From IMG/VR virus record IMGVR_UViG_3300048835_000834, positions 1-29,663 of that record: a stretch of 29,663 bases of DNA; one strand, given 5' to 3'. Below the pieces are notes generated by a model. It ran no database searches and was not told the origin of the DNA. It saw only the letters and a program-made list of their open reading frames with translations. A program made the translations under genes and the position numbers. The stretch's first letter is position 1; each line of letters opens with the position of its first letter. This document shows positions 285-29,623 of this stretch, in pieces. Source of the DNA: a virus.

Positions 285-1361
285 TTAGGCTGCGATCTCT
301 TTTTGATTGCTTTTCGGATTCGATTTTTGCTTAACCGCGCTTCTGGGCATCTGTGATAGGCATTCGATAAACTGCTTTCCAAAGAGTAGACCTATCAATG
401 GGGGAACCGCATTACCGATTTGCTCATACTTGGACTTAATCGTTCTACCATAAAACACAAAATCATCTGGAAAGCTTTGGAAGCGCGCTATTTCTCGTAC
501 TGTAAAGATCCTGTCTTTCCAGGGATGCCAAACGGCAGCATTCTCAGGCTTAAAAGCTGCAGTAACAGTACTCATTATCGACTGTCTTGAGCATCTTCTA
601 TAAATAACGGGTGATCCATATTCCTTCATGTTAGCGCGTATTTTCTTCAATCTATCTGGTAGGTGCTGAGTAGCAATGTCCTTCCAGCTACCACCCTCTG
701 GTACAAATTTGCCAAGTTTAAGCGCCTGGGGATTTAGACGCATTATTTCAGTTTGATTTGGTGTGTCCTTAGACAAGCCTCTCAGCGTTGCTTTTATTGA
801 TAGATCTACCGGGTCGATCATTTTTGGAAACACATACTCAAGGTGATTCTTGTTTTTCGTTCCAACCAGGATCACCCTCGTCCTTATCTGAGGGACGCCG
901 AAGTGACTAAAATTGAGCAGCTTATACGTAGTGTGATACCCCATATCCCGGAGAGATTCTATTATGACGTCAATTAGCAACCGATCCTCGTATTTTGCGG
1001 AAAGTAGCCCACGAACATTTTCGATCATCACTATCTTTGGCGACAATTCTCTACAAAATTTTAAAGTAGTCAAAAAATGAAGCCCTCGGTAGTCATCTAC
1101 ACCTTTTCGATTTCCCGCACTAGAGAATGGTTGACAGGGAAATCCGGAGACCAAAAGGTCGAGGCCTTTTACTTTTGGGACTTCGATGACAGATATATCA
1201 GCCTGAATAATGTCACCAATGTTTCTTCGATACGTCTCACATGCGTCTGGATTTGAATCACATGCCCATACAGAATTGAATCCTGCCTTTATCAAACCAA
1301 GGTCGAGGCCTCCACATCCGGAGTACATGCTAATAAAGGTAGGGCTTTTTCGGATCGACAT
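285..1361 (-). CDS. DNA (cytosine-5) methyltransferase
   Basis: A 358-residue C5-cytosine DNA methyltransferase that transfers a methyl group from S-adenosylmethionine to cytosine in a specific DNA sequence. The family motifs appear in order: motif I SGCGGLDLGL (about 14-23, cofactor binding), motif IV PCQPFS with catalytic Cys76, motif VI ENV (114-116), motif VIII QIRTR (158-162), a variable target-recognition stretch (about 170-290), motif IX FTVREIARFQ and motif X GNAVPP (316-321). The length is normal for the family and no key residue is missing. The start is supported by AGGAGG a few bases upstream. It is the last gene of the minus-strand cargo cassette and is separated from the nuclease gene by 606 bp, so it may have its own promoter. 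Likely role: protecting self DNA from the neighbouring nuclease/helicase. An orphan phage methylase is the alternative. The target sequence cannot be read. Confidence 0.95.
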   Translation of the reverse strand: MSIRKSPTFISMYSGCGGLDLGLIKAGFNSVWACDSNPDACETYRRNIGDIIQADISVIEVPKVKGLDLLVSGFPCQPFSSAGNRKGVDDYRGLHFLTTLKFCRELSPKIVMIENVRGLLSAKYEDRLLIDVIIESLRDMGYHTTYKLLNFSHFGVPQIRTRVILVGTKNKNHLEYVFPKMIDPVDLSIKATLRGLSKDTPNQTEIMRLNPQALKLGKFVPEGGSWKDIATQHLPDRLKKIRANMKEYGSPVIYRRCSRQSIMSTVTAAFKPENAAVWHPWKDRIFTVREIARFQSFPDDFVFYGRTIKSKYEQIGNAVPPLIGLLFGKQFIECLSQMPRSAVKQKSNPKSNQKEIAA

Positions 1362-1967
1362 TATTAATCCCTCCTGCAGGTGAAGATTCTAAGTTGTCGC
1401 AATATTTCGATAGCCCATTTTCTTTAAAGGGCTGCTATCGTAGCGTCGATGCCGTCTGCCTTCGGTCGTATCTGGATTCTAGGTTCGGTGCTATGAATGT
1501 TTACTTGAGGTAGATATCGGCTCAGGAATACACGTCTTTAGTGGATAAGGTAGGCGAATTACGCCCGAACACGAGGTTTTTGGTTTGTATAAACCTGATT
1601 TCGTTGAATCTTTGGACTCTATTTGTTGCATTCTCATGTTCATTTATATTTTAACAGATCTCTCTATAGCATCGGGGCTTTCAGCCATCTTTTTCCATGG
1701 CAGCGTCTTCATCGCAACGTCATGTTTCTGATTGCCGCAGTCAACAAGCTGACGAAAAATTAGCAGTTTCTTTTGTTCATCCGTTGACTTGCGCTGCCGT
1801 TTCACACCCGTGGAGGACAGTGTTTTACTCATCCCTAGGAAGCCTTCCCCAGGTAAGCTTCGAGGCATAGCTTTAGAAATTGAGGTCAAACCTGAAAGTG
1901 GGATTAGGGAAAGGTTCTTACATTTAGCAGAAAAGTATCAAGTGATGCATGGCCGATCGCTTTGCGT
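1362..1967. other. 606-bp gap between methyltransferase and nuclease genes
   Basis: No convincing gene lies here. A hairpin at 1408-1440 pairs CGATAGCCC with GGG and CTATCG (3-nt bulge, 12-nt loop). It ends about 47 bp before the methyltransferase start codon, where it would sit in that gene's leader RNA. The minus strand carries an 81-codon open frame at 1644-1889 (62 codons if started at 1832) with a lysine-rich N-terminus and only a weak AAGG element. The plus strand carries overlapping short frames. I would not call any of these a gene without homologues. The gap may hold a separate methyltransferase promoter. Confidence 0.4.
1408..1440 (-). promoter_or_regulatory. leader hairpin upstream of the methyltransferase gene
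   Basis: CGATAGCCC (1408-1416) can pair with GGG (1429-1431) and CTATCG (1435-1440) around a 12-nt AT-rich loop. It lies 47-79 bp before the methyltransferase start on the coding side, where an attenuator or operator would fit. No U-tract follows it in the direction of transcription, so a simple terminator is less likely. Confidence 0.3.
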
Positions 1968-3158
1968 TTAAAATAAGCCGAGAACGTTTGTTGGATCTTG
2001 GATTCGATACGGCCACTGTTTACTATTGCGGTAGATTAATAGAGTCACTCCATTCAAAAACAGAAAGTCTCTCATCTCATTTTCCAGACAGGGATTTCCA
2101 CATTCTTCCACTAGAACGCATTTATGCATCACAGTTTTATCTTGTTTTTTTAAAAGAAAATCATAATATGATATCTGTATCATGCCTTTGCAACACTGCT
2201 CAAAAAAATTATCTCGTGTAGTGCTTTTTATTTCCAAGATTGTGTGCCCATTCCCCACTGAAATAGCAAGGTCGATACTCGACGAACGAAGTGGGGTGAT
2301 GCCCTTGCTTCGTAAGAAGTCCACAATCTCTCTGAGTATAGATTGGTGTCTTGCCTCTGCTTGCTCAGTCTTTTGAAGAATTGAGTTCCAATAGCCATTG
2401 TCTTCATTTGTCTTTTTGATGTATCGTCGTGCCGCAATATTATGTTCAGTGACTTCTTTGAAGTGCCCGTCGAATCTCCTATTTGGAGACACTGAGAAGC
2501 CGTTTTGTGGGCTGAAATTTGTCTTTCTTTCTAGCTCAAATATTGTATGTTCCTTATATAATCCATCAAAACAAAAACTGAGCCACCAAAGGTAGGGTTC
2601 ATCACAGTAAGCTCCGGTTGATGGCGTAGTGAGTTGCGATGCTACAAACGTCCTCTTAAACTTTTCAAGCGCAAGAGGGAATGGAGTTGATGGGGTTATT
2701 CCCAAAATATCACAGCGTTGTTTGAGCCTTTTTTTGTCCGGTGGGCCAATAGACTTTTCTTGTGCCTGTTGTGCCCAGTTTTTAAGGTATAAAGACATCT
2801 GTTCAGTAGCAATAGCAAGTGTTTTTCCTGATTGGATCTGGACGCTGGAGGTTAAACGCTGCCAAAGAATGCCTTCTAAACTACCTGGATGAGTGAAATA
2901 GGTTGACCGCAATAAATCAAAACTCAGTAGATACTGACCGGATCCGGGCCCAGAAAGAAGTTCAGAAATTAACTCTGGATAAAATGCTCCAAAGAGCGTT
3001 GAGTAAGTCTTATTTCTGACTATCACCCAAATTCGGGAGTCGTAAAGATCCTCAATCCTGATCGGCATCACCTCAGGCGGGACTAAAAGCTCGAATGTAA
3101 ACGGAGCCCTTAACTCAGGTAAATTCTCCGATGGAATGTGCAAAACAAACTCAGACAT
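1968..3158 (-). CDS. PD-(D/E)XK nuclease-domain protein, probable restriction component
   Basis: A 396-residue protein whose C-terminal third carries a PD-(D/E)XK endonuclease signature: Asp296 in SIDLAIS and, 13 residues on, LEIKS with Glu309 and Lys311. These are the acidic-acidic-lysine metal-binding residues of this fold. The helix before Asp296 (RHQSILREIVDFLRSKG) also fits the fold. The first 270 residues resemble no family I can name and may recognise DNA or a partner. Its ATG overlaps the end of the SNF2 helicase gene by 8 bp (ATGTCTGA), so the two are probably translationally coupled and act together. Expected role: DNA cleavage in a multi-subunit restriction-like system, with the downstream methyltransferase giving self-protection. 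The fold call is motif-based and the function is inferred from context. Confidence 0.8.
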   Translation of the reverse strand: MSEFVLHIPSENLPELRAPFTFELLVPPEVMPIRIEDLYDSRIWVIVRNKTYSTLFGAFYPELISELLSGPGSGQYLLSFDLLRSTYFTHPGSLEGILWQRLTSSVQIQSGKTLAIATEQMSLYLKNWAQQAQEKSIGPPDKKRLKQRCDILGITPSTPFPLALEKFKRTFVASQLTTPSTGAYCDEPYLWWLSFCFDGLYKEHTIFELERKTNFSPQNGFSVSPNRRFDGHFKEVTEHNIAARRYIKKTNEDNGYWNSILQKTEQAEARHQSILREIVDFLRSKGITPLRSSSIDLAISVGNGHTILEIKSTTRDNFFEQCCKGMIQISYYDFLLKKQDKTVMHKCVLVEECGNPCLENEMRDFLFLNGVTLLIYRNSKQWPYRIQDPTNVLGLF

Positions 3159-4848
3159 TTTCGAGCTCTGAGATAGCTTCGTCTAGGCTTGAAGGGAAAT
3201 TGACTTTATCGTTGAGCAACTCATGCTGGTTCGTTACTTTGTGGCCTAATCGTGCAACTTCACTTTCCTCAATCGTTCCTTCTGCCACAAGGAGCGTAAC
3301 TTCAACTTTGTCTGCATTCTGCCCAATTCGGTGAATGCGGTCGATGGACTGTAAGAAGTGAGCTGCTTGGTTTGAATATGAAAGATAAATAGAATGCGCC
3401 GCAGCATGAAGTGTTATTCCTGCCCCTGCCGCTGCGGGATTGCCGACAAAAATTTTGATATTAGGATTGGATTGGAACTCTTTGACTGCACTTTTTCTGA
3501 CACTTGTGGAGACGCCCCCATCGATTCGGACAATCCCAAGGTGTTCGTATCTAGTGCATATATCATTGATGCTTTCGGTGTAGAATGACCATATCACAAC
3601 TTTTTCATTATTCTTCTCTACAATCTTATGGATAAGCGAATCAAGGGCTAAATACTTGGCGGGTTCATCGGTAAAAAGAGGGTCGATCAGTGTTGGTCTT
3701 AAGCAGATTTGGAGTAACGCGGCCCGTTTTTGGAAGTATGACGAAAGTATTCTCTTAAATGAGCGGTTGTCCATTTGCTTTAATTCTAAAACTAGGGACC
3801 TTCTAACATTCTCATAAAGTTCCCGTTGCTTCCTGCCTAATTTCACTTTATGAATAGTAAACAATTTAGGTGGTAGTTCTGGCAATACTTCCGACTTTAG
3901 GCGTCTGATTAAAACTCCACGGGATTCAATGCGATTGGTTATTGCCTCTTTAATTTTTTCATCATGTTGTGGAACGCTGAAACCAGCAAAAGTATAGCCA
4001 TCATCCGCAATATCAAACTGACTAATGATATCTAGCGGTGAGTTTGGTGCAGGTGTGCCGCAGAGTACCAATCCAAATTTGCAATATCTTCTTATCTCGC
4101 GAATGGCAACAGAGCGTATAGCGCGGTGATTTTTGACGTAGAATGACTCATCGACTACGAGAATAGTATGCTTTCCTCGGAGAGTTCCTTTGATAGTTGC
4201 GAGATGAGACTGAACAGATTCAAAATTCAAACAATATATCTGGCTAGCAGAATTCAAAAGTTTATGTCGTTCTTGAAATGATCCCTCAACTGTTGTGACA
4301 GAATACTTTTTCGGAAGAAAGCGATCTATTTCCTTTGGCCATTCGTGGAGCATACTTTTAGGAGACAAAATTATCGCTAGGTCAACGCTCCCTTGAGCAA
4401 ACATTTGATCCAACAAAGAAATCGCAGTGATGGTCTTTCCAGCCCCTTGCTCATCGAAAAGACATGCACCTAAAAGTCCATTTGTTAGCAACGCCTTGAC
4501 AGCTTTTGCTTGGTAAGGCTTAAGTAGTGAGCCCCAGTAGGTATCAGTTGCCTCATAATTGTCGTCTGACAGGGCGGTTTCTGCGGCGAGTTTGCCATTA
4601 AGATGAGCTTTTTCCTTGTGAAGACGTTCTTTAAATATCTCGTCTAAATTCTCGCTCTGAAAGTGTCCACTCTTCTGTAGATGCTCTATTACTAATGTCG
4701 CACAATCTAGCGGGACAGAGAAGCCGGACGATGATTCATGACTTATGTTGGCTTCAGTCAATTCCTTGATAATATCAGCTTTAAGGCGAAGCAATGCAAC
4801 CCCATGGCCTTCAATACAAATGCGATTGTTTGCAATTTTAACTCGCAT
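3151..4848 (-). CDS. SNF2-family DNA helicase/translocase
   Basis: A 565-residue superfamily 2 ATPase of the SNF2 type. Visible motifs: KPYQAKAV before motif I; Walker A DEQGAGKT (132-139); motif II DESF (233-236) followed by YVKN; motif III GTPAPN (264-269); motif IV region VVIWSFY; motif V GNPAAAGAGITLHAA; motif VI QSIDRIHRIGQ (500-510), diagnostic of SNF2 proteins. The first 105 residues are outside the helicase core and unassigned. SNF2 enzymes track along double-stranded DNA using ATP rather than separating strands; in defence systems they commonly scan or drive DNA for a nuclease. AGGA lies 5-6 nt before the ATG. It is 20 bp after the ParB-like gene and overlaps the nuclease gene, so it is in the middle of an operon. 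Confidence 0.92.
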   Translation of the reverse strand: MRVKIANNRICIEGHGVALLRLKADIIKELTEANISHESSSGFSVPLDCATLVIEHLQKSGHFQSENLDEIFKERLHKEKAHLNGKLAAETALSDDNYEATDTYWGSLLKPYQAKAVKALLTNGLLGACLFDEQGAGKTITAISLLDQMFAQGSVDLAIILSPKSMLHEWPKEIDRFLPKKYSVTTVEGSFQERHKLLNSASQIYCLNFESVQSHLATIKGTLRGKHTILVVDESFYVKNHRAIRSVAIREIRRYCKFGLVLCGTPAPNSPLDIISQFDIADDGYTFAGFSVPQHDEKIKEAITNRIESRGVLIRRLKSEVLPELPPKLFTIHKVKLGRKQRELYENVRRSLVLELKQMDNRSFKRILSSYFQKRAALLQICLRPTLIDPLFTDEPAKYLALDSLIHKIVEKNNEKVVIWSFYTESINDICTRYEHLGIVRIDGGVSTSVRKSAVKEFQSNPNIKIFVGNPAAAGAGITLHAAAHSIYLSYSNQAAHFLQSIDRIHRIGQNADKVEVTLLVAEGTIEESEVARLGHKVTNQHELLNDKVNFPSSLDEAISELENV

Positions 4849-4868
4849 ATTTCCTGCTTATAGCATAA

Positions 4869-5990
4869 TCATGGCTGAATGGTGGATTTCCACATATCTG
4901 TGATCAATTTTATCGCGCCTTGTAGTTTGTTAATGTCTTCCTGGGAGAGGCTCTTTATGTCTATGGCTTGAATTGACTGTAGATACTCAATGAATTGATT
5001 TATTGTTTCGCGGGCTTCAGATTCGCCTTTGAGAATTCGCTTATGATAATCGAGAGAGGCCTTGGCGTCTTTAGCAGCTGTAGATTCTTTGCTAGTAATA
5101 ATTGATCGTATTTTTGGGTGTTTCCACGCCTCGTATGCGATACGGACCTCTGGAAAGCTTGCAAATTTATCTTCGTGAATCCACCTGAAAAACTGAAATT
5201 TGAATTCAGCATCGCTCAAGAGACTTTCATAGAACGACTTTTGAGCTTCGTTAAAGAACTGATAATTTCGAGAAGCAATAGACTCTGCTTGGTGCTCAGC
5301 TAAGCCAAGCCCTCCGCCATATTCGTCCTCATTGTCTACTGGGTCAGTCGCAAACGTGATGAAATCATCAATAATTTTTATGATTTTAAACGTTTCCTTA
5401 ACTTTGCTTCTAGTCCATCCATACTTATCTGCTATCTCCTTTTCAGTTAGACCTTTTTCTTTGTCCAACCTAATGTATGTCGCTTTAACGAAGTCTGGCC
5501 ATTCGATCTTCAGAGATGGTTGGAAGTTTTCTTCAACCAAAACGAGCTCTTCGTCTACTGAAGTAGAGTCTGTGGTCAAGACGTATGCAGGGAGTACCTC
5601 GAATTCACGCCTTTTTGGATCGTTGAGCGGGATGGTTTCAAGGAGTAGTTTCAGCGCGAAGAATCGCCTATTCCCATCGAGAAGTTGGCCCGCACTCGAT
5701 ATGATTATCGGTTCACGAAGGCCTCTTTTTAAAATGTCATCTCTAAGAGCTGCGAGGTGAATAGAAGGCTCGCTTTTCATTATTTCGAATACTTCTTCTT
5801 GTGTAAGATCCCGGTCACCTACGTTCAACTTGCGTTCTTGAGCTGCCAATTGAATGCGTGGATTTTGCACCCAGCCACATACGTTTTCAATATGTACTTT
5901 GCCCATCCAAAGCATAAGTTGGCGACCCCCGAAAGAACGCTGCTGAATGGAAGGGTCTGGCTTGCTTTCCAAAATTTCGGGGCGTTGCAT
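4869..5990 (-). CDS. ParB/sulfiredoxin-fold DNA-binding protein
   Basis: A 373-residue protein with a ParB-like N-terminal domain: HLAALRDDILKRGLREPIII followed by the phosphate/nucleotide-binding GNRR motif (106-109) and FFALKLL. A helix-turn-helix follows at about 180-202 (LTEKEIADKYGWTRSKVKET), the usual ParB order. The remaining 170 residues are mainly helical and unassigned. In this cassette a plasmid-segregation role is unlikely because no ParA-type ATPase accompanies it. ParB-fold proteins also occur as nuclease, CTP-binding or targeting components in defence loci such as Dnd and Dpd, which is the likelier setting. A GAGAGA element precedes the ATG. Spacing is 47 bp after the upstream gene and 20 bp before the helicase gene. 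The domain call is good; the biochemical activity is unknown. Confidence 0.85.
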   Translation of the reverse strand: MQRPEILESKPDPSIQQRSFGGRQLMLWMGKVHIENVCGWVQNPRIQLAAQERKLNVGDRDLTQEEVFEIMKSEPSIHLAALRDDILKRGLREPIIISSAGQLLDGNRRFFALKLLLETIPLNDPKRREFEVLPAYVLTTDSTSVDEELVLVEENFQPSLKIEWPDFVKATYIRLDKEKGLTEKEIADKYGWTRSKVKETFKIIKIIDDFITFATDPVDNEDEYGGGLGLAEHQAESIASRNYQFFNEAQKSFYESLLSDAEFKFQFFRWIHEDKFASFPEVRIAYEAWKHPKIRSIITSKESTAAKDAKASLDYHKRILKGESEARETINQFIEYLQSIQAIDIKSLSQEDINKLQGAIKLITDMWKSTIQP

Positions 5991-6037
5991 GGTTTTTCTC
6001 TCGGTTTAAGTAGGAAACGAAATAGTGTGCCACTTTC

Positions 6038-6910
6038 TCACGATGTCTTTGGTATTTTTTCTTCGGCTATTAATTCCAACTCACTTAGTCGAGACCGAAG
6101 TCGATCAATTTCTAGTCTCAGATTCGCGTTTTCAGTTCGCAAGTTCTTCAATTCTTCATTAGATTCAATTGAATGGTTGTCGAAATCAGGGTCTATTTCG
6201 CTTACTCGTGCAAATGAATGTCCGAATATTTCGATGTTTCCTTTAAAAAAACGCTTTTCTACGTCTAGCCGCTGATGGACAAAATCACGAATGTCATTTG
6301 AAAAGCAACTTGATGCAATAGTTTTTAGTGTGTTGGAAATATTGGGGTCAGGGCATGCTATTGGTATTGCACGAAAGAGGAATAGCATAAGGTCTGTCCA
6401 CGGAGTGTTTGACCTGCGGTCGTCAAGATATCTTAAAATATTGCTTTTCCAGTCGGGATGAATACTTAGTCCCCATCGATGTCCGTAAATCTCAACACCC
6501 ACAAGTAATAAAGGAGCTGGTCGACGAGGATAGCTCTGGGGATTTGCTCCCCGGCTAGATGTAGTTAGAATAGTTGTTAGAAAATTTGCCTTAATTTTTT
6601 CATCTGGACTTCGTTCTGAAGATATTACTGATCCGAGATTGGCAACCATTGTGTTTGGTGAATCGAGATCAGATACAAAGCCGCTATAAATACTTTCGAA
6701 ATTTCTGCGATTTTCTCTACTGAATTGAACGTTGGGATTAAGACAGACGCTGTCGCAACTTAGAGTTTTAAGGAGCCTAGCTAACGTGAAAAAGTACATC
6801 AAAGCAGAAGTACGTTCTTGACCACGCTTAGTACCTGGATCAGTCTCCTTAAGAGCCAAAAATGCTTTCTTTACTAGTGCTGCATTCAGGTATATTGCGT
6901 CTTTGGACAT
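6038..6910 (-). CDS. unrecognised protein with C-terminal coiled coil, first gene of the cargo cassette
   Basis: I do not recognise this 290-residue protein. The frame can extend to an ATG at 6991 (317 residues), but that ATG has no ribosome-binding site. The ATG at 6910 has AGAGGA about 10 nt upstream and begins MSKDAIYLNAALVKKAF, so I prefer it. The last 45 residues (EELKNLRTENANLRLEIDRL onward) form heptads of Leu/Ile typical of a coiled coil, suggesting oligomerisation or binding to a partner. No catalytic motif, membrane segment or signal peptide is visible. It heads the minus-strand cassette, 47 bp before the ParB-like gene, so it probably belongs to the same system as a structural or sensing subunit. 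It is strongly AT-rich compared with the virion genes. Confidence 0.7.
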   Translation of the reverse strand: MSKDAIYLNAALVKKAFLALKETDPGTKRGQERTSALMYFFTLARLLKTLSCDSVCLNPNVQFSRENRRNFESIYSGFVSDLDSPNTMVANLGSVISSERSPDEKIKANFLTTILTTSSRGANPQSYPRRPAPLLLVGVEIYGHRWGLSIHPDWKSNILRYLDDRRSNTPWTDLMLFLFRAIPIACPDPNISNTLKTIASSCFSNDIRDFVHQRLDVEKRFFKGNIEIFGHSFARVSEIDPDFDNHSIESNEELKNLRTENANLRLEIDRLRSRLSELELIAEEKIPKTS

Positions 6911-7175
6911 GCTATTCCAATCCTCTTTGAACCATAACTTTCGGCTGTATTCAGAGGAATTTGAGGAAATAATGTTAACGCTTAAATACATAAATAAAAT
7001 TAATTAGTTATGTTTTGGTGGGTGCTTCGAACATTGGCAAATTTTTCACTGTCTAGAGTGATCGGCTTTTGATTCGTACATACTATAAGAACAGAGGATG
7101 CCTATTCGAAGAATTTGTTGAAATCCCTAAATAGACATGACTTGCTCGCGGGTCCTTTGTGCAATTAAATCAAGT

Positions 7176-7190
7176 GGTTGACGATCAACC
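7176..7190. promoter_or_regulatory. palindrome, possible operator
   Basis: GGTTGA (7176-7181) and TCAACC (7185-7190) are perfect inverted repeats around CGA. It lies in the divergent intergenic region about 265 bp from the cassette's first start codon. An operator is plausible but nothing identifies the protein that would bind it. Confidence 0.25.
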
Positions 7191-7375
7191 TCCCCCTGTT
7201 TCACTTTTCAAAAAAATTTTTGCGTCACCGTCACCAGCGTGCCTGCAAGACCAAAGACCCTGACCCCCCGGTAACAATGGCTTTGCCACGTAAAATGCGC
7301 TGCTGTTGTATTTGGTGATTATAAGATGCGGAAGCCGCTGATCAGGTGCAGCGCTTAGTTCTCGCTGGAGATTTG

Positions 7376-7403
7376 TTGATGAAGTCAAGCTCCAGACTGT
7401 AAT
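7376..7403 (+). promoter_or_regulatory. candidate promoter for the terminase operon
   Basis: TTGATG (7376-7381) and TGTAAT (7398-7403) are separated by 16 bp and match the sigma-70 elements at 4 of 6 and 5 of 6 positions. The 20-bp palindrome begins 5 bp after the -10-like element, overlapping the expected transcription start, where an operator would act. Consensus matching alone is weak evidence. Confidence 0.35.
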
Positions 7404-7407
7404 GCAG

Positions 7408-7427
7408 TGTCCGCTTTTGCGCGGACA
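7408..7427. promoter_or_regulatory. palindrome copy 1 (TGTCCGC-N6-GCGGACA), candidate late operator
   Basis: A perfect 7-bp inverted repeat with a 6-bp spacer, ending 79 bp before the small terminase start. An identical pair of arms with the same spacing occurs at 13050-13069, 65 bp before the capsid protease start. The shared arms, shared spacing and similar distance to the first gene of two late-gene blocks suggest a common regulator binding site. A shared mRNA leader hairpin is the alternative. Confidence 0.55.
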
Positions 7428-7476
7428 GTCCCATGCTTTCCATTATTCCCTGACATCGGTAACACTCCTATGAAAG

Positions 7477-7492
7477 GCCGCGCCAGCGCGGC
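7477..7492 (+). promoter_or_regulatory. GC hairpin next to the terS ribosome-binding site
   Basis: GCCGCG (7477-7482) and CGCGGC (7487-7492) pair around a CCAG loop, ending 3-4 nt before the GGAGG at 7496-7500. Such a stable stem beside the Shine-Dalgarno sequence could set translation rate or mRNA stability. It leaves GGAGG unpaired. Confidence 0.35.
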
Positions 7493-7506
7493 AACGGAGG
7501 AAGATT

Positions 7507-8130
7507 TTGCGGAAACAGACTGCATCCATTCGAGAGTTTGCGCGGATTATCGGCGTTGACCACGCCGCTATCAGCCGTGCAGTCAAAGGCGGTGATCGCC
7601 TGCGGAAATCAGTGGTCGACGAGGACGGCAAAAAAAAGATCATCATATTTGATGGCTGCCTTGAGTGGCACCATAACAAGCACTACCGCAAAGATACTCG
7701 CAAGGACCAGCCTCGGACGCCAGCAGGAAACGCGAGCCCGGGCATCATGCCGAGGGAAGTTTCTTCGGATCTTGATAGCCACTACTCGGCTCTGATCAAG
7801 CAGGTCGAGCACGGGCGGCTGACCGGTCAGCTCATGCCTGCTGCGAGGATTCAGCAGGAAGCGGCTGAATGCTTCCGCGCCTGCCGGGATACCCTTCTCA
7901 ATCTTCCACTCTCAGTTTCAGAAATTGCCAAGGGCATCATGTTTCGGCTGGTTCGGGATCAGGGTGGCGATGAAGGTGTCCAGACAATGGAGCAACCCCT
8001 GAATGATGCGGCTTTGAAAATTCGGGTGGGGGCCAAGGCCGAGGTGCGCAAGGCGCTGATCCAGGCCAGCAAGATTCTTCAGGATGGCGGCAGGGAACAA
8101 GCCGAGAAGGCGACATATGCTGATGACTAA
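7507..8130 (+). CDS. terminase small subunit (lambda Nu1-like)
   Basis: A 207-residue DNA-packaging protein. The N-terminus contains a helix-turn-helix (SIREFARIIGVDHAAISRAV) of the kind small terminases use to bind the phage packaging site, and the C-terminal part is helical. Position directly before the large terminase gene supports the role: it would recognise cos or pac DNA and recruit the large subunit. The start is TTG, chosen because GGAGG (7496-7500) stands 6 nt upstream and no in-frame ATG precedes the HTH. It overlaps the large terminase start by 14 bp. Length is near that of lambda gpNu1 (181 aa). Confidence 0.85.
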   Translation: MRKQTASIREFARIIGVDHAAISRAVKGGDRLRKSVVDEDGKKKIIIFDGCLEWHHNKHYRKDTRKDQPRTPAGNASPGIMPREVSSDLDSHYSALIKQVEHGRLTGQLMPAARIQQEAAECFRACRDTLLNLPLSVSEIAKGIMFRLVRDQGGDEGVQTMEQPLNDAALKIRVGAKAEVRKALIQASKILQDGGREQAEKATYADD

Positions 8131-9973
8131 CGCCTATGAATTTCAAAGCTTTGCCAGCATCAAGACGATAGTCTCAGAAAGCATTCTGCCGCCGGAAGAA
8201 ATTTCAATCCGTGAGCACGCGGAAAGAAACCTTTACCTTCCCGCTGGTAAGAACCCATTCCCCGGCCTTGTCGATTTCTCCAAGACCCCATATCTTTATG
8301 AGCCACTCGACGCCCTGATGCCTGACAATGGGGTCGAAAAGGTAGTCCTCATGAAGGGCTGGCAGACCGGGGGAACACTTTCGGGACTCGCCTGGATGCT
8401 TTGGGTCATGGACGCGGCTCCTGCCTATATGCTCATTGTCCAGCCCAACGACGAGCTCCGGAAGACGTTTTCCCAGCACCGGATTAATCCCATCATTGCG
8501 CACTGCATTTCACTTAGGGAAAAGGTTGAGCATGAGGCGCGTCGAGAAAGGCTTGAAAAGGACAGCATCCTGACCAAGTCCTTTCCGGGTGGCTGTCTTT
8601 TCCTCGGAACAGCGACTTCAACCTCTGCCCTGAGGTCTCACAGCTTTCAATATGTGATGTTTGACGAGGTTTCGGCCTATCCGGCCAATACCCAGAAGAA
8701 TGGCGATCCGTGCGGCCTTGCCATTGGCCGGACGTCCGCCTATGAAGGCCGAAAAAAGCTCTTCTATGTCTCAACCCCTTCTATCGCTGGTCAGTGCCGG
8801 ATTGAGGCCGAATACCTGACCACCGATCAAAGAAAATACTTTGTCCCATGCCTTGGCTGTGGCCACATGCAGCTCATCACCGAGGCTGGAATGGACTTTT
8901 CCCTGGAGCTGCCGGTTTTCCGCTGCGAAAAGTGCCGCCATGCCCACGTGGAGCAGGACAAGACCGAAATGCTGAGGCTTGGCGAATGGCGACCCACGGC
9001 AAGGGCCAAAACCTCCAACTGCCGCGGCTATCATCTGCCGGCGCTTTATGCGCCGCCCGGCATGTGGTCGTGGCGAAGCACCAGGGAGCAGCTCCTGAAG
9101 GGGGTTGATAACCCTGAGGAGAGGAAGGTCTACTTTAACAATTGCCTCGGCCTTCCCTATGAGGATGCTGCCATCAAGCCTCTGGATCCCAATGATCTCA
9201 GAAGCTGCATCGATAGCGGCTGGCCGGACGATAGGTTGCCGAAGGGAGTCGGTTATATCACAGCAGGCGTGGACACCCATCCGGATCACGTTGATATGGT
9301 GATCATGGGCTGGGGCCGCATGGGCGAAAGGTGGGTCATCGATCATCATAAGCTCCAGCGGGATTCCAACCATGAGGCCACCTGGCTGGAGGTTTACTGT
9401 CTTCTCCAGCGCGAATACCTGCACCATACAGGGGCCAGGCTTAGAATTGCCGCCACCTGCATTGATACGGGTGGCCACAATACAGGCGCCGTCTATGACT
9501 TCTGCCGCGGCCGCGAGCACGAATTTATCCTGGCTATCAAAGGCTCCAGCAATCGCTCTGCCCCGATCATTGCGGCCGCGACATACAGGAAGGAGGCCGA
9601 CATTTATCTCTTCCCGGTCGGACAGCTCGCCACCCACGGCCGTCTTTTCTCTTCGCTCGCACGCTCCGTTAGAAAACTCGAGGAGATCAAGGCCGCCCAG
9701 CGGCGCGGCCAGACCATGGAATATACAGGGCCTGGTCTGATTCATTTTAAGCCAGGACTGGATCACTCCTTTTTCAAGGAACTGACCACGCCCAAGGCCA
9801 AGTGGGTTCGGCGGGATGGCAAGGATCAGCTGACTTATACGACGGTCGCAGGCATGGACGATCACGCACATGACTGCATCCGCTACGCTGATGCCGCCAG
9901 GGAGTTCATGCATCAGGATATTGACGGCATCTGCGATCAGCTTGATGGAATCACGAGCGAGGGTGCCGCATGA
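8117..9973 (+). CDS. terminase large subunit (lambda gpA family)
   Basis: About 618 residues, close to lambda gpA (641). This is the ATPase/nuclease that cuts concatemeric DNA and pumps it into the prohead. Visible: a Walker A-like KGWQTGGT (about 80-87), Walker B VMFDEVSA (about 180-187), a CxxC...CxxC zinc-binding pair (about 245-273), then nuclease-type acidic motifs including GVDTHPDHVD and the C-terminal DDHAHDCIRYA typical of this family. The ATG at 8117 is preferred because GAGAAGG stands just upstream; an upstream in-frame ATG at 8084 is possible but deeper in terS. The stop overlaps the next gene by ATGA. Confidence 0.95.
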   Translation: MLMTNAYEFQSFASIKTIVSESILPPEEISIREHAERNLYLPAGKNPFPGLVDFSKTPYLYEPLDALMPDNGVEKVVLMKGWQTGGTLSGLAWMLWVMDAAPAYMLIVQPNDELRKTFSQHRINPIIAHCISLREKVEHEARRERLEKDSILTKSFPGGCLFLGTATSTSALRSHSFQYVMFDEVSAYPANTQKNGDPCGLAIGRTSAYEGRKKLFYVSTPSIAGQCRIEAEYLTTDQRKYFVPCLGCGHMQLITEAGMDFSLELPVFRCEKCRHAHVEQDKTEMLRLGEWRPTARAKTSNCRGYHLPALYAPPGMWSWRSTREQLLKGVDNPEERKVYFNNCLGLPYEDAAIKPLDPNDLRSCIDSGWPDDRLPKGVGYITAGVDTHPDHVDMVIMGWGRMGERWVIDHHKLQRDSNHEATWLEVYCLLQREYLHHTGARLRIAATCIDTGGHNTGAVYDFCRGREHEFILAIKGSSNRSAPIIAAATYRKEADIYLFPVGQLATHGRLFSSLARSVRKLEEIKAAQRRGQTMEYTGPGLIHFKPGLDHSFFKELTTPKAKWVRRDGKDQLTYTTVAGMDDHAHDCIRYADAAREFMHQDIDGICDQLDGITSEGAA

Positions 9974-10170
9974 CGATCGAGGAGCAGCTGGAGTCGGTGG
10001 AGAAAGCCATTGCCACTATTGAAGCAGGCGGCCAGGAGACTGACATCGAGGTGAACGAAAACAGGCGCCGGGTGGTGCGTGCCAGGCTGCGGGATCTTTA
10101 TGATCGGGAAGCGAAGCTGAGGATGGCAATCAGAAGGCGTGATGGTGGGAGCGTGTACCGTGTTCAATAA
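9970..10170 (+). CDS. head-tail joining protein (lambda gpW-like)
   Basis: A 66-residue protein located between the large terminase and portal genes, exactly where lambda W (68 aa) lies. It begins with a charged helix (MTIEEQLESVEKAIATIEAG) and ends with a basic stretch, as in the gpW family. gpW stabilises DNA in the filled head and forms part of the connector. Its ATGA start overlaps the terminase stop and its end overlaps the portal reading frame, indicating translational coupling. Confidence 0.8.
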   Translation: MTIEEQLESVEKAIATIEAGGQETDIEVNENRRRVVRARLRDLYDREAKLRMAIRRRDGGSVYRVQ

Positions 10171-11656
10171 AAACGGGACTTCATTCTGGTCAAATCTGAA
10201 GGGAATTTTCAGCCGGGGGGTGTATTTTGAAACGCCAGAGGTGGACGAACCCTATAGAACTGCATCGAGACATGACATTCCGGACTGGAACCCTTCCTCC
10301 TCTAATGCCGACGAAGCCCTGCTCCCGTCGCTGTCAGCGCTTCGTAATCAGTCGCGGGACCTTGACCGCAATGAAAGCCTCGCACGCGGTCCCATTGAAA
10401 ATTACGTGACCAATGTCGTGGCTGATGGTCTTCGACCCCAGGCCCGTATTGACCATGAGCTGCTTGGGATCAGGGAAGAGAAGGCCAGGGAGTTTGAGCG
10501 GAAGGCCGAGCGGATATTCGAGCTTCACATGCGAAAGAATACTGCCGACTTTCATGGAAAGGCCAACTTTCAGACCATTCAGGCTCAGGTCCTGCGTGCG
10601 GCGCTGCTCGATGGGGACTGCCTCGTCATCCGCCGCCACCGGGAACGCCCGCACGGTATCCTGCCGACCTGCCTTCAACTGATCGAAGGCGCTAGGATCA
10701 GAAACCCGGCCGTAGCAAAAAATCCCAAAACAGATATCAGGGAAGGCGTGGAATTGGACGCCACAGGCATGCCGATTGCCTTTCATATTGCAAGGACCGG
10801 AGCCGATCACTTCCTTGGCTCCGAAACGGTGCGTGTGCCGCGCTTCGATAATTCCGGCGCGCCCGTCGTTCTGCATATCTTTTCAAAGCGTCTTCCCGAG
10901 CAGAGCCGGGGCGAGCCGCTTCTGGCACCGGTTATCAAAAAATTCAAGGAGATCTCGGACTATACCGAGGCTGAAATCAGGGCGGCCGTGGTCAATGCCT
11001 TCTTTGCCATCTACGTGACATCCGAAATGGGGTCGGTCTTCGGCGATCGGGCGAGCGCACACCTTGCGCGTCAGATCGAGGAAAAGCCGAAGGAGCGGAA
11101 GTTTCAGAAGTTTGGACCGGGCGGCCTCATGGTCGATCTTCTGCCAGGTGAAAAGGTGGACAACGGCGCCCCAGGCCGGCCGAACAGCAACTTTGATCCC
11201 TTTGTTCAGGCTGTTATCAAGCAGATCGGTATTGGTCTCGGTCTTCCCTATGAAGTCCTTACTCAGCACTATAGCTCATCCTACAGCGCCGCCCGTGCGG
11301 CCATCCTCGAAGCCTGGAAGTCCTTTAAGGTCTGGCGTGCCTGGCTCGTGGCTGAATTCTGTCAGCCGGTCTGGGAGTGGGTGATTTCCGATGCTATTGA
11401 AAAAGGACTCATCGATGCGCCTAGGTTTGATGATCCTCTCAAAAGGCACGGATGGCTTTCGACCCAGTGGGCCGGAACCGAGATGGGGTCAATCGATCCT
11501 TTGAAGGATGCGAAAGCGAGTGAAGTTGAGGTCAATGCCGGTCTCCGCACGCGCCGGTCGATCGTCGAAAGTCAGGGAAGGGACTTCGACAAGCACGTCC
11601 GGGACTATGAGTCTGAAAAAGAAGCCTTCCAGGAATCCAGGAGGATGGAGACATAG
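10160..11656 (+). CDS. portal protein (lambda gpB family)
   Basis: About 498 residues, the ring through which DNA enters and leaves the head. Family-like segments include LRNQSRDLDRNESLARGPIE, VRAALLDGDCLVIRR-type sequence near the middle (LRAALLDGDCLVIRR), and the conserved GLPYEVLTQHYSSSYSAARA before the C-terminus. Order after terminase and gpW matches lambda. The start is probably GTG at 10160, with GGGAG eight bases upstream; ATG at 10139 in the same frame is the alternative and would lengthen the overlap with gpW. It ends 98 bp before the 3' end of an opposite-strand lipoprotein gene instead of running directly into the protease gene. Confidence 0.93.
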   Translation: MFNKNGTSFWSNLKGIFSRGVYFETPEVDEPYRTASRHDIPDWNPSSSNADEALLPSLSALRNQSRDLDRNESLARGPIENYVTNVVADGLRPQARIDHELLGIREEKAREFERKAERIFELHMRKNTADFHGKANFQTIQAQVLRAALLDGDCLVIRRHRERPHGILPTCLQLIEGARIRNPAVAKNPKTDIREGVELDATGMPIAFHIARTGADHFLGSETVRVPRFDNSGAPVVLHIFSKRLPEQSRGEPLLAPVIKKFKEISDYTEAEIRAAVVNAFFAIYVTSEMGSVFGDRASAHLARQIEEKPKERKFQKFGPGGLMVDLLPGEKVDNGAPGRPNSNFDPFVQAVIKQIGIGLGLPYEVLTQHYSSSYSAARAAILEAWKSFKVWRAWLVAEFCQPVWEWVISDAIEKGLIDAPRFDDPLKRHGWLSTQWAGTEMGSIDPLKDAKASEVEVNAGLRTRRSIVESQGRDFDKHVRDYESEKEAFQESRRMET

Positions 11657-11754: not shown

Positions 11755-12672
11755 TTAGTAAGAGTAGCGCACTGAGTGCATTAACGTTCCCGAGCTGATT
11801 TCGTCCAACGTGGAAGCGCGTCCTTCACTATCAAAGGTGAAGGTAATTGAACCTGTCACCGAAGCTGGACTTCCGCTCAGTACCTGAGCGGATGTGATAA
11901 ATTCAGTTGATTCGTCGTAGGTGAATTTCAGAGTTCTTATATGTATGGACCCGTGAGCATACTCAGCGAATTCCGTGATGCGATTGCCCGCTGATGCATC
12001 GAGGGAGATTCGAATCTGGTCCATTATTTGATTATCCTTGTCGCGTGATTCCACTGTTGTCAACAAACCGCTGTCGCCGTAAGTCAGGGTAATGCCTCCA
12101 CCAGTACCATCGTCCGTGGCGGACTGGATATCTGCACCACTTAGGCGGCCTGAGTTGTCGAATTTGAGTGTTCGGGTCGTTGTATTGCCAAAGTAGGTCT
12201 TGGAATAAGATGTCAATGCGCCTTGCTCGTCAAAAAACGGTGTGATCACTGTATCGGAAGCCCCGCTTAACGTTTCTCTGATTTCGGCCAGCCGATCTCC
12301 GTCGTATGTGTGGGTTATGGTGTTGGTCGTAGAGCTGGATGTAATTGTTTCCAGAGCGATACGGTTTTGTTCGTCATATGTATATGCAACAGTATAGGGG
12401 GACGTATTTCCGCTATAAGATTTGCTCTTCGCTAAGTATTTTTGTGCAATCTTTTCGAAGAAGTCCCGATCCACAGAGATGAAGTTGTCGTATAGGTATG
12501 CCACAAGATAGCCCTGTTTCCTGGGATCTCCTTCGGTAACGGGGGAGTCGGAATTTCCACCGCCGCCACCGCCACTGCTACCGCAAGCGCCCAAGAAAAA
12601 CGCCATCGCAAGCGCTGCAACCAGCATCCATAAGTTCGAATTCAGCGTTTGATTCCTAGAAATGGTGCTCAT
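11755..12672 (-). CDS. lipoprotein with YD/RHS-like beta repeats, probable lysogenic-conversion gene
   Basis: A 305-residue exported lipoprotein. The N-terminus has a hydrophobic segment ending in the lipobox LGAC with Cys30 as lipidation site, followed by a flexible SSGGGGGGNS linker. The rest is a run of beta-strand pairs such as YTYDEQNRIALETI, HTYDGDRLAEI, LKFDNSGRLSGA, FTYDESTEF and FTFDSEGRAS, which look like YD/RHS-type or DUF4595-like repeats, giving a surface-exposed beta structure. AGGAG stands 6 nt before the ATG. It is on the strand opposite to the head operon and is inserted between portal and protease genes, so it would be transcribed separately, likely from the prophage in the lysogen. 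Role unknown: surface alteration or superinfection exclusion are reasonable guesses. Confidence 0.85.
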   Translation of the reverse strand: MSTISRNQTLNSNLWMLVAALAMAFFLGACGSSGGGGGGNSDSPVTEGDPRKQGYLVAYLYDNFISVDRDFFEKIAQKYLAKSKSYSGNTSPYTVAYTYDEQNRIALETITSSSTTNTITHTYDGDRLAEIRETLSGASDTVITPFFDEQGALTSYSKTYFGNTTTRTLKFDNSGRLSGADIQSATDDGTGGGITLTYGDSGLLTTVESRDKDNQIMDQIRISLDASAGNRITEFAEYAHGSIHIRTLKFTYDESTEFITSAQVLSGSPASVTGSITFTFDSEGRASTLDEISSGTLMHSVRYSY

Positions 12673-13134: not shown

Positions 13135-14340
13135 GTGTCCTTTGCTCTCAATCAAATTTTAAATTCACAGTGGGCCATGACCGAGGAGGCTTTGCGCCTC
13201 ATGCTCTCTGTTGTGGAAAAACACGGTAATATCGAAGCTCTTGAAAAAATCCGTGGCAATCGACTTAAGGCCATGGAAAAAGCCACTATCCGGAGCGGGG
13301 TGGGAGTCATCCCGGTCCGTGGTCCATTATTCAAACGCGCAAATCTCATGACCGAGCACTGCGGGGCGACCAGCTACGAAACGGTGCTTCGCGACTTTCA
13401 TCAGATGGTGGCTTCCGATCAGGTTCAGAGCATCATCCTTGACATTGATAGCCCCGGCGGCGAGGCCAATGGCTGCTCGGAGCTGGCCGACCATATCTTT
13501 GAGGTCCGCGGCCAAAAGCCGATTGCAGCCTATATCGGTGGCACAGGAGCATCCGCAGCCTATTGGATCGCCAGCGCCTGTGACCGCGTCTTCGGCTCCG
13601 ACTCAGCGATTGTCGGGAGCATTGGGGTTCAATCTGCGCTCAGATCCGAAAAAAGCGAAGGGGAGATCCGCTTCGTTTCCAGCCAAAGCCCCAATAAAAA
13701 CCGCGACCCAGCGACCCAGGAGGGCGCTCGGGAGGTGCAGGCCGTTGTCGATGGCCTGGCCGACGTCTTCATTGGCAAGGTCGCCCGTAACCGTGGCGTG
13801 AGCCGTGAAACGGTCCTCGAAAGATTCGGCCAGGGGTCAGTCTTCGTGGGATCGGAAGCCAGAAACCGGGGACTTATTGATGAAATTGCCACACTTGAAA
13901 GCATTATTGCCAATTATGGAGCCCAAGGAATGACAACGGAAAACATCACAGCGGAATACATTGCTGCAAATCACCCGGCGATTGCCGAGCATTTCATTAA
14001 CATTGGAACTTCAAGGACGCTTGCAAGGTTCGAGGCGGAAAAAAAGCGCGTTGCCGGCATCAGATCACTCGCCGAAGGGCAGGTGCCCGAAGACTTTGTG
14101 CAGGCGCTTATCGAGCGAAACCTGAGCTGTCAGGAGGCGGCGGTGGAAATTCTGCAGGAAATCAAACGAAACCCGCCAACGCCCAAACCGGATCCGAAAA
14201 AGGAGTTTGACGCTCACTTTCAGGGGCTCGACGTGCCACCCATGCCGGCCGAGGGCTCCGCTACTGAGATGGCCGCTCAACAGGATGCAGCCATTCTGCT
14301 GGCAAGAAGAATGGGAATCACCGGAGGGATCGGCGCATGA
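13135..14340 (+). CDS. S49-family capsid maturation protease with scaffold C-terminus (lambda gpC-like)
   Basis: About 401 residues. The first two thirds is a ClpP-fold peptidase S49 domain: IILDIDSPGGEANG (about 101-111), then GGTGASAAYW with the likely nucleophile Ser at about 140, and SAIVGSIGV. The C-terminal part is helical and charged, as expected for an assembly scaffold. In lambda-like phages this protein is built into the prohead and processes it. The start is GTG at 13135 because GGGAG stands 6 nt upstream; longer in-frame starts (TTG 13108) are less likely. It follows the accessory lipoprotein insert rather than the portal gene directly, and its stop overlaps the decoration gene by ATGA. 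Confidence 0.92.
   Translation: MSFALNQILNSQWAMTEEALRLMLSVVEKHGNIEALEKIRGNRLKAMEKATIRSGVGVIPVRGPLFKRANLMTEHCGATSYETVLRDFHQMVASDQVQSIILDIDSPGGEANGCSELADHIFEVRGQKPIAAYIGGTGASAAYWIASACDRVFGSDSAIVGSIGVQSALRSEKSEGEIRFVSSQSPNKNRDPATQEGAREVQAVVDGLADVFIGKVARNRGVSRETVLERFGQGSVFVGSEARNRGLIDEIATLESIIANYGAQGMTTENITAEYIAANHPAIAEHFINIGTSRTLARFEAEKKRVAGIRSLAEGQVPEDFVQALIERNLSCQEAAVEILQEIKRNPPTPKPDPKKEFDAHFQGLDVPPMPAEGSATEMAAQQDAAILLARRMGITGGIGA
13930..14340 (+). CDS. nested scaffold protein (lambda Nu3-like), internal start in the protease gene
   Basis: Within the protease gene an in-frame ATG at 13930 has GGAG at 13918-13921, 8 nt upstream, and would give a 136-residue protein identical to the protease C-terminus. 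It begins MTTENITAEYIAANHPAIAE and is helical and charged with a proline-rich stretch. Lambda makes its scaffold Nu3 from an internal start in gene C in just this way. The internal ribosome-binding site is visible; use of it is inferred by analogy. Confidence 0.5.
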   Translation: MTTENITAEYIAANHPAIAEHFINIGTSRTLARFEAEKKRVAGIRSLAEGQVPEDFVQALIERNLSCQEAAVEILQEIKRNPPTPKPDPKKEFDAHFQGLDVPPMPAEGSATEMAAQQDAAILLARRMGITGGIGA

Positions 14341-14732
14341 ACTACGATCCGCATTTTCGCGAGGTATCAAGATACGAGCCGAGGTTTCTAAACCGGGGCA
14401 GCTTTCCCGCCTACCGGGGATCGGTAACGATTGAAAAGGGACAGGTCCTGAAAAAGGGATCAGTCCTCGGCCGGAAGACCGCCAGCGGCAAGTATGTCCT
14501 TTGCTCAAAAACAGCAGAGGATGGAACCACGGCCATTTCCGATGGAAGTGAGAAGGCCCGCTGCATTCTTCAGATCGACATCGATGCCACGGCCGGTGAC
14601 CGGTTCGCCCCTGTTTTTCGGACGGGAGCCTTCCTGCGCCTGGACCTCACAGTAGGCAAGGGGCACACGCTGGAATCGGTTGAGGATGATCTTGAAACGC
14701 ATAACATTTATCTCGAAAACGGCGAGGACTGA
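14337..14732 (+). CDS. head decoration protein (lambda gpD-like)
   Basis: A 131-residue protein between the protease and major capsid genes, where lambda D lies. Beta-rich sequence such as YRGSVTIEKGQVLKKGSVLG and the later DATAGDRFAPVFRTGAFLRL match the style of head-decoration proteins (HDPD family), which trimerise on the expanded capsid and stabilise it. Slightly longer than lambda gpD (110 aa). Starts at the ATGA overlap with the protease stop. The next gene begins 3 bp after its stop. Confidence 0.8.
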   Translation: MNYDPHFREVSRYEPRFLNRGSFPAYRGSVTIEKGQVLKKGSVLGRKTASGKYVLCSKTAEDGTTAISDGSEKARCILQIDIDATAGDRFAPVFRTGAFLRLDLTVGKGHTLESVEDDLETHNIYLENGED

Positions 14733-14735
14733 CCC

Positions 14736-15764: not shown

Positions 15765-15802
15765 ACATCGGAATTTGAAGCCACCATTCGAGGAGGATCC
15801 TC

Positions 15803-28079: not shown

Positions 28080-28346
28080 ATGATAGTCAAAAAGAAATCG
28101 ACGTTAATGGTATCCATTGTTAAAAAGAAAGGACTAGGTTCAGAAGACTCTGCGGCGGTCAGCCACGCGGAGAAGATCTTTGACAATTGGATAACGAAAA
28201 AATTGCTGGCTTCGCACCTCGGTATGTCACTTAGCTTTGTGAATAAGTACATGAAGGAAGGACTGCCGTATAGGCGGCGAGGTAGAGCAGTGAGATTTCG
28301 AGTGATCGAAGTTGAAGAATGGCTTCAACGGAGATTCATTCAATGA
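28080..28346 (+). CDS. excisionase-like HTH protein
   Basis: An 88-residue basic protein. Residues about 40-85 form an AlpA/excisionase-type winged helix-turn-helix: WITKKLLASHLGMSLSFVNK, YMKEGLPYRRRGRAVRF and VIEVEEWLQRR. Such proteins bend DNA at att sites and direct the integrase toward excision. The AT-rich gene overlaps the integrase start by ATGA, so the two are coupled. The first 35 residues are lysine-rich and unassigned; a start at the later ATG (28107) is possible. Confidence 0.78.
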   Translation: MIVKKKSTLMVSIVKKKGLGSEDSAAVSHAEKIFDNWITKKLLASHLGMSLSFVNKYMKEGLPYRRRGRAVRFRVIEVEEWLQRRFIQ

Positions 28347-29623
28347 AAAAGTTCAATCCTAAAGTTTATCAGGGCAAAAATCGCGTATATCCTCCCGTTC
28401 CAGGAGCCCCAAATGTTCGAAAAATCCTTATCTGGGATGAAGATAAGAAGGAATATAGGCTACCCGCGAGAGGTAAATTATATCTTGCTCGCCGATATGA
28501 GATTGATAGCAGGGGCAAGAAATTTAGGAAGACTGAATACTTTGAAAGCTTGGAGTCTGCCCGTAATTGGCAGTCATTCATCAGCTTGGACGCTGGTGAA
28601 GTTCAATCATTCGAGTCTTTAGTCAAAAAAAGTGATGCTCCAACTTTTCAGGAAATTTTTCTGGAGTGGAAAAAGCGCAAATTTTCCAGTTTGCGAAAAT
28701 CCAGTTGGGTGGCGTATGAGAATCTGGTCAATCGACATCTTCAGATGTTTCGTGATTACCCGATCAATACAATCTCTCCGAAAGATATTGATGCATGGCT
28801 TGCTGACAGAAAATTGAACTTGGTGAACTCTACTCAAGCCAAGACACGGAATAGCTTCAAGAATGAACTTGTCGTGCTCAGCATCATTTTGGAGTATTAC
28901 GCGGAGTATTACGAGGAGGATGCGACATTCCGCTTTCCGATTAAGAAACGTCATTGGAAAGATGCAAAATTGAATATTTCGCGTCCACCAAGACAAAAAG
29001 ATCTCACGGAAACAGAATTCCAACTCTTTCTGTCTCAACTTGTGACATTGACTGACGGGGTTGTTCTTTCTGACTTGGCGACGTGCCAGTATTATCAGGC
29101 TTTGAGGATTTCGGAAATTGCTGCGCTGGATTGGTCTAATGTCGTTTTTAACTGGTCAAATCCGAAAGAATCGAAATTGATGATTAGTCAGCACGCTGTT
29201 TATACGGTCGAGAAAGGTGCTATTCCCAAAGTCGAACCTGGATTTAAGAATTCGGATTCGTGTGGCGGGATAAAGGAGTTGCCAATGTTTCCTCCTACAT
29301 TCAACGTCTTGAAGAGATTGCATGGAGATGGAGGTAAAAGCGGCCTGGTTTTTCCCACTAGCACTGGAGATTTTTTTAGATACCATACCGTCTATGACAG
29401 ATATAATAAGGCGTTCGAGAGGGCTGGTCTGCCATACAAGGCCACGCATGTCTTACGCCATGGATGGACCAGACAAATCTTTGACTCGACCAACGGTGAT
29501 TATGGCATAGCCGGACAGCTGCTCGGCAATACGTCACGAATTTCTATCGAAACCTATGCACAGCGAAAGAAAAGCGCATTAGCAACTGTGGCGCACGATA
29601 GGTGGAATGTAGTAGGAAATTAG
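28343..29623 (+). CDS. int: tyrosine-type site-specific integrase
   Basis: About 426 residues with tyrosine recombinase residues visible: Arg255 in YYQALRISEIAALDW, His369 and Arg372 with His373 in THVLRHGWTRQIFD, and nucleophile Tyr405 in ISIETYAQR. The N-terminal part carries a SAM-like core-binding domain (TFQEIFLEWKKRKF, then VAYENLVNRHLQMFR). The enzyme would insert the phage into the host chromosome by recombining attP and attB. The start is ATG 28343 with GGAG 9 nt upstream and an ATGA overlap with the excisionase; ATG 28319 is a longer alternative. The prophage end is expected just beyond its stop. Confidence 0.93.
   Translation: MKKFNPKVYQGKNRVYPPVPGAPNVRKILIWDEDKKEYRLPARGKLYLARRYEIDSRGKKFRKTEYFESLESARNWQSFISLDAGEVQSFESLVKKSDAPTFQEIFLEWKKRKFSSLRKSSWVAYENLVNRHLQMFRDYPINTISPKDIDAWLADRKLNLVNSTQAKTRNSFKNELVVLSIILEYYAEYYEEDATFRFPIKKRHWKDAKLNISRPPRQKDLTETEFQLFLSQLVTLTDGVVLSDLATCQYYQALRISEIAALDWSNVVFNWSNPKESKLMISQHAVYTVEKGAIPKVEPGFKNSDSCGGIKELPMFPPTFNVLKRLHGDGGKSGLVFPTSTGDFFRYHTVYDRYNKAFERAGLPYKATHVLRHGWTRQIFDSTNGDYGIAGQLLGNTSRISIETYAQRKKSALATVAHDRWNVVGN

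Follow-up and report, generated by a model that had tools for sequence, protein, structure and literature searches.

The stretch of DNA analysed here, which we call the window, is an IMG/VR virus record of 29,663 bases. Family scans of its open reading frames (ORFs) identified a contractile-tailed temperate phage in its right part, with recognisable genes for terminase, portal, head protease, major head protein, baseplate, sheath and tape measure, and a phage integrase gene lies at the far end of the record (28319..29623, plus strand; phrog_1, 2.7e-34). The left end is taken up by a minus-strand cassette of five genes, adjoined by the genes for the terminase small subunit, terminase large subunit and portal (7507..11656, plus strand). 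Among the ORFs scanned, none was recognised as a lysis or replication gene; the phage may be incomplete or its record cut at the left end. End repeats of at least 12 bp that would fix prophage attachment sites were absent from the window, bar one chance-like match, scans for tRNAs and Rfam families returned nothing, and promoter and terminator scans did not rise above shuffles. Among the phage genes, a minus-strand gene resembling one for a lipoprotein (11755-12672) separates portal from head protease and is odd in a phage late operon, and a collagen-like triple-helix repeat protein (PF01391, 5e-23) is encoded among the tail genes (20876-22045).

Read along the minus strand, the cassette consists of co-directional genes for a coiled-coil protein (CC), a ParB-like protein, an SNF2-family ATPase and a nuclease, followed by one for a C5-cytosine DNA methyltransferase (MTase). 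The ORF coordinates bear out the arrangement proposed in the initial annotation, with spacings of 47, 20 and -8 bp within the four-gene part and 606 bp to the MTase; no conserved gene was recognised in that last interval (1362..1967, minus strand). The ORF of the first gene of the operon, CC, opens at 6991 (6038-6991, 317 aa), but the start at 6910 adopted earlier (MSKDAIYLN...; 6038..6910, minus strand) fits the homologues better than this mechanical one and is preferred. The cassette had also been described as AT-richer than the virion genes, and the GC content of its five genes is indeed 0.40-0.43, compared with about 0.51-0.58 over most virion genes.

The SNF2-family ATPase (3151..4848, minus strand, 565 aa; SNF2-rel_dom 1.5e-27, Helicase_C 2.6e-12) has both RecA lobes and motifs I-VI, including Walker A GAGKT, DESF, GTPAPN and a motif VI of the form QSIDRIHRIGQ. 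It contains no nuclease domain, and its ResIII match is generic. The ParB-like protein (4869..5990, minus strand, 373 aa) matches known families weakly (phrog_4715, 2e-9; HTH_ParB weak), and its profile matched Spo0J (1vz0) at 0.005. Its P motif (LLDGNRRFFA, residues 103-112) is invariant across the homologues, which are 45-53% identical. Having this motif with its conserved arginine (GNRR) as well as a helix-turn-helix (HTH), the protein belongs to the ParB/Srx type and is predicted to bind NTP. According to the accessible parts of PMC12704722, tested ParB-fold proteins bind CTP, ATP or GTP, and the arginine of the GNRR-type motif is required for NTP binding. The MTase (285..1361, minus strand, 358 aa; PF00145, 3.8e-69), taken to be intact from the outset, has all of the C5 motifs I, IV, VI, VIII and X in the window and its own upstream ribosome-binding sequence (AGGAGG).

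Neither the nuclease nor CC had a significant family match in Pfam, NCBIfam, PADLOC or PHROGs. For the nuclease (1968..3158, minus strand, 396 aa), the suggested PD-(D/E)XK identity is backed by invariant residues and by weak fold matches to restriction enzymes. D296, E309, K311, N317, Q321 and K324 are invariant in 10 sequences, the catalytic residues being kept although identity between most loci is only about 25-30%. The predicted model (pLDDT 65, modest confidence) suggests a beta-rich N-terminal domain (about 1-90) and a PD-(D/E)XK C-terminal domain (about 250-380), whose core runs alpha-beta-beta-beta-alpha-beta and weakly matched PaqCI (prob 0.97) and Nt.BspD6I (prob 0.98), both with E above 0.01. 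The model also weakly matched YTH and other base-reader-like folds, none with E <= 0.001, and these matches may belong to the N-terminal domain. An endonuclease with an intact catalytic motif (D296, E309, K311), as expected of a restriction–modification (R-M) system, is thus present. For CC, the description as a coiled-coil protein holds for the C-terminal tail and fails for the conserved part, which is a globular domain (33-250; pLDDT 78 for the whole model, above 80 in most blocks of the domain). A fold search with CC against PDB and BFVD gave nothing with E <= 0.001. Its homologues at 10 loci are about 26-34% identical, and E59-R60-T61-S62, N136-F137, Y154-P155 and R157-P158 are invariant in the nine that were aligned.

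Searches with the nuclease, SNF2 or ParB as single queries brought up no relatives, whether in viral contigs, plasmids, phages or genomes; the best plasmid matches to SNF2 were large generic helicases without the cassette. The way in was a degenerate pattern for SNF2 motif VI (YLQSxDRIHR), which led to proviruses with a ParB-like gene before SNF2. Alignment of those gave two proviruses (L016 and L017) with SNF2 proteins 42-43% identical, and an alignment of these two with the SNF2 of the window revealed 32 loci among 84,980 species genomes. Ten of them form the window's own branch and 22 a sister branch. Seven of the ten hold all five genes contiguously and co-directionally in the order MTase-CC-ParB-SNF2-nuclease: L096 (Kaiserbacteria), L098 (Gammaproteobacteria), L099 (Methylobacillus sp. 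MM3), L100 (Aliidiomarina maris), L101 (Nitrospira lenta), L102 (Kiritimatiellae) and L126 (Nitrospinota). In L097 (Chitinophagaceae) the contig ends after MTase-CC-ParB-SNF2, and two loci from Actinomycetota (L103 and L114, L139 being the ParB end of the latter's system) keep MTase, ParB, SNF2 and nuclease with an unrelated gene in the CC slot. As these two replace the CC gene, CC is not essential to the scheme. A scan of IMG/VR seeded with ParB alone added two contigs (L140 and L141), both of which hold all five genes in one order. Several of the homologues come from metagenome bins, and a nuclease with the catalytic residues kept is present wherever the contig allows.

Co-occurrence of the five genes elsewhere had been set beforehand as a test able to refute the proposal. 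The same five-gene block recurs in seven genomes and two viral contigs, and the gene set is therefore beyond chance. Its distribution is patchy: in samples of 399, 396, 296 and 380 genomes from four phyla, and of 60 and 100 genomes from two families, a window-type ParB was found in the seed genomes only. Other matches to the ParB profile in these samples were weaker, the best of them (9e-39) adjoining a sister-branch SNF2, and in small samples, searches by nuclease or CC profile likewise picked up nothing beyond the seed genomes.

The five genes have evolved together. The MTases of the cassettes, including that of the window, form one clade with a support of 100, and within the window's branch the SNF2 tree follows almost the same branching order as the MTase tree. 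The distance matrices of the five proteins correlate for all ten gene pairs (Mantel r 0.76-0.96), values reached in no more than 8 of 5000 permutations. A cognate MTase linked to the nuclease genes, again expected of an R-M system, was thus found in all complete loci, with congruent trees and distances. The nearest relatives lie across phyla, the gammaproteobacterial L098 grouping with L101 from Nitrospira, and the flanks differ between loci (seryl-tRNA synthetase, aminotransferase, glutamate-cysteine ligase, sugar kinase), which indicates that the block moves as a unit. The cassette spreads horizontally as such, carried by phages and genomic islands. Carriage by a phage, as first supposed for the window, was seen again in L140 (516-17110), where the cassette sits between the terminase large subunit gene and the portal and head genes of another phage; in L141 an endolysin-like gene lies upstream, and large serine recombinases are found near the cassettes of L098 and L101. 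In L102, a goat-reticulum genome, the genes for a class II Argonaute (5e-144) and the SIR2 protein paired with it (7e-106) lie 739 bp downstream (13753-16744). Two further loci carry genes for repair enzymes: in L126, Vsr (1.5e-29) is encoded next to the MTase, and in L099 the nuclease gene is followed by one for an HhH-GPD glycosylase. Both are usual companions of 5mC methylases and repair the T:G mismatches arising from 5mC, and their presence fits a 5mC mark on the host DNA. As separate observations, near its cassette (2067-4813) L100 has a methyltransferase-HNH fusion (mad2-like) and another gene of ZorD-like nuclease similarity, and a gene overlapping the nuclease end in L141 (12053-12841) matches the CRISPR/Cas-associated phrog_1706 (5e-9).

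The MTase is the last gene only in the window and the first elsewhere, and its start in the window is 41-124 residues closer to motif I than in the homologues with a located motif I. Given this last position, the 606 bp gap and the shorter stretch before motif I, the window MTase may be regulated differently from its homologues. The extra N-terminal part of the L103 MTase resembles a helix-turn-helix.

The second refuting test set in advance was a match to an already named system, and we found none: no PADLOC model fits the five-gene set as a whole, and the set is not described in the open literature searched, including the accessible parts of PMC10853773, PMC12839542, PMC3710099, PMC5512222 and PMC12704722. 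Within PADLOC and this literature, the system is unnamed. In their logic, Type I and Type III R-M systems are like the cassette, with a self-marking methylase, an SF2 ATPase motor and a PD-(D/E)XK nuclease, but the cassette differs from them in having a C5 rather than an N6/N4 methylase, an additional ParB-like protein, and the motor and nuclease on separate chains. No HsdR, HsdM or HsdS was among the Pfam, NCBIfam and PADLOC matches shown for the five proteins; they likewise include no Mod or Res of Type III, the MTase being of the C5 kind and SNF2 having no fused nuclease. A Type II system pairs a stand-alone ATP-independent REase with its MTase; here an MTase and a nuclease are present, but always together with SNF2 and ParB. 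DISARM shares an SNF2 ATPase and a C5 MTase, by generic similarity to DrmD and DrmMII, respectively, while Dpd and Zorya share SNF2 by generic similarity to DpdE and ZorD only. The absence of DrmA/B/C and DpdA reported at the start was confirmed among the PADLOC matches of the five proteins. These proteins include no DpdA-type transglycosylase, and the combination of DpdA with preQ0 modification genes that defines Dpd was not found; in PADLOC, they also gave no match to ZorA or ZorB of Zorya or to PglZ or BrxC of BREX. Dnd neighbourhoods come close in having the ParB-superfamily protein DndB, accessory nucleases and sometimes cytosine methylases (PMC10853773, accessible parts), but the cassette has no DndC/D/E or DndF/G/H, and the ParB-SNF2-nuclease-C5 MTase set is not described in those parts of that paper.

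Judging from sequence, we consider it probable, at roughly 0.7, that the cassette is an unnamed multi-subunit NTP-dependent R-M system built on a ParB-SNF2 core. The C5 MTase would mark the DNA of the host and prophage, and ParB, SNF2, CC and the nuclease would jointly attack unmarked DNA. In such a machine, the ParB-like protein would bind DNA via its HTH and be switched by NTP binding, the SNF2 ATPase would translocate on double-stranded DNA driven by ATP, the PD-(D/E)XK protein would cut, and CC would serve as an adaptor or as part of target recognition. We infer complex formation, methylation-sensitive cutting, restriction of phages, an antidote role for the MTase and the exclusion of rivals, and likewise what ParB and CC do and which subunit recognises the target site. 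By analogy with canonical ParB, one may also guess that the ParB-like protein acts as a sliding clamp.

The same biochemistry could serve R-M addiction, the module being selfish and keeping the prophage in place through the death of cells that lose it, with phage restriction as a secondary effect. Type II R-M systems can act as addiction modules, and carriage by phages (the window, L140 and L141) and by islands with serine recombinases (L098 and L101) would suit this. We nevertheless regard the explanation as unlikely, since the gene set exceeds a plain Type II pair and the L102 cassette lies beside the pAgo and SIR2 defence genes. Still less probable is a function in phage self-protection or anti-restriction, where the MTase would mask the phage DNA and SNF2 and ParB would help in loading or translocation at DNA entry, like DarB-type methylase-helicase dyads. 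The cassette does adjoin packaging genes, and SNF2-methylase coupling is known in phage counter-restriction (PMC5512222, accessible parts), but DarB-type methylases are adenine methylases whereas the enzyme here is a C5 methylase. The unfailing presence of a catalytically preserved nuclease where the contig allows also argues against it, as do the seven complete cassettes in bacterial genomes, with annotated flanks that are cellular (seryl-tRNA synthetase, aminotransferase, glutamate-cysteine ligase).

The weak matches of the nuclease to YTH and base-reader-like proteins, together with the MTase lying 606 bp apart in the window, would agree with a modification-dependent (Type IV-like) system in which the nuclease uses an N-terminal beta domain to read modified invader DNA and the MTase is an orphan with loose linkage to the rest. 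Such a system is very improbable: the fold matches are not significant, the MTases of the cassettes make up a single clade that agrees with SNF2, and in other loci they immediately precede CC. The least credible explanation is that the prophage has here a partition or replication module based on ParB, on which R-M genes hitchhike. The adjacency of a ParB-like protein and a helicase-like ATPase might speak for it; against it, no ParA was seen among the family-scanned cassette genes, and ParB, SNF2, nuclease and MTase co-evolve as a unit in bacterial chromosomes.

If the R-M reading is true, the cassette represents an architecture that falls under none of Types I-IV, DISARM, Dpd, BREX or Zorya, and one that builds a ParB-type nucleotide switch into a defence machine that degrades DNA. 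Phages of unrelated kinds carry the whole system, one of them among its structural genes. The 22 genome loci of the sister branch and the proviruses L016 (the same locus as L123) and L017 hold genes for a sigma-like protein, ParB (about 400-540 aa), SNF2, a small PD-(D/E)XK nuclease (PDV...GEAK) and a C5 MTase, the last in 19 of the 22; some loci miss some parts, and Vsr and HhH-GPD are present or absent. The ParB is homologous to that of the window over its full length (hhalign E 8e-53), and the SNF2 proteins are 38-46% identical with the NPAAAGxGxxLH signature in common, but the MTase is of a different lineage and mostly on the opposite strand. By profile comparison, we found no homology between the window nuclease and the small nuclease of the sister branch, or between CC and either the sigma-like protein or the actinobacterial first protein.

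A more distant branch is represented by a provirus (L012, 3085-8538) with an N4/N6 MTase, a BglII-like REase, ParB, SNF2 and an NOV_C nuclease in a row; ParB-SNF2-NOV_C-like genes are also found in L013 and part of them in L010. Here too ParB and SNF2 are adjacent and followed by a nuclease, which has an EVKS(T/S)T motif, but SNF2 is only about 27-29% identical, the nuclease is of another family, and the methylase is N4/N6 instead of C5. As the nuclease, the first gene and the methylase differ between the branches, the ParB-SNF2 pair is the constant part. We see even odds that restriction systems centred on such pairs make up an undescribed class of their own, in which the SNF2 translocase would be controlled by a ParB-type protein that is switched by NTP and perhaps acts as a sliding clamp. 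The nuclease, first gene and methylase would then be swapped between branches, and phages would use the whole against rival phages. Because the pair stays while nuclease and methylase change, a clear test is possible, namely of its action on unmarked DNA. One locus, L119 from Nitrospirae, has two ParB-like genes, one on each strand (4257-9663).
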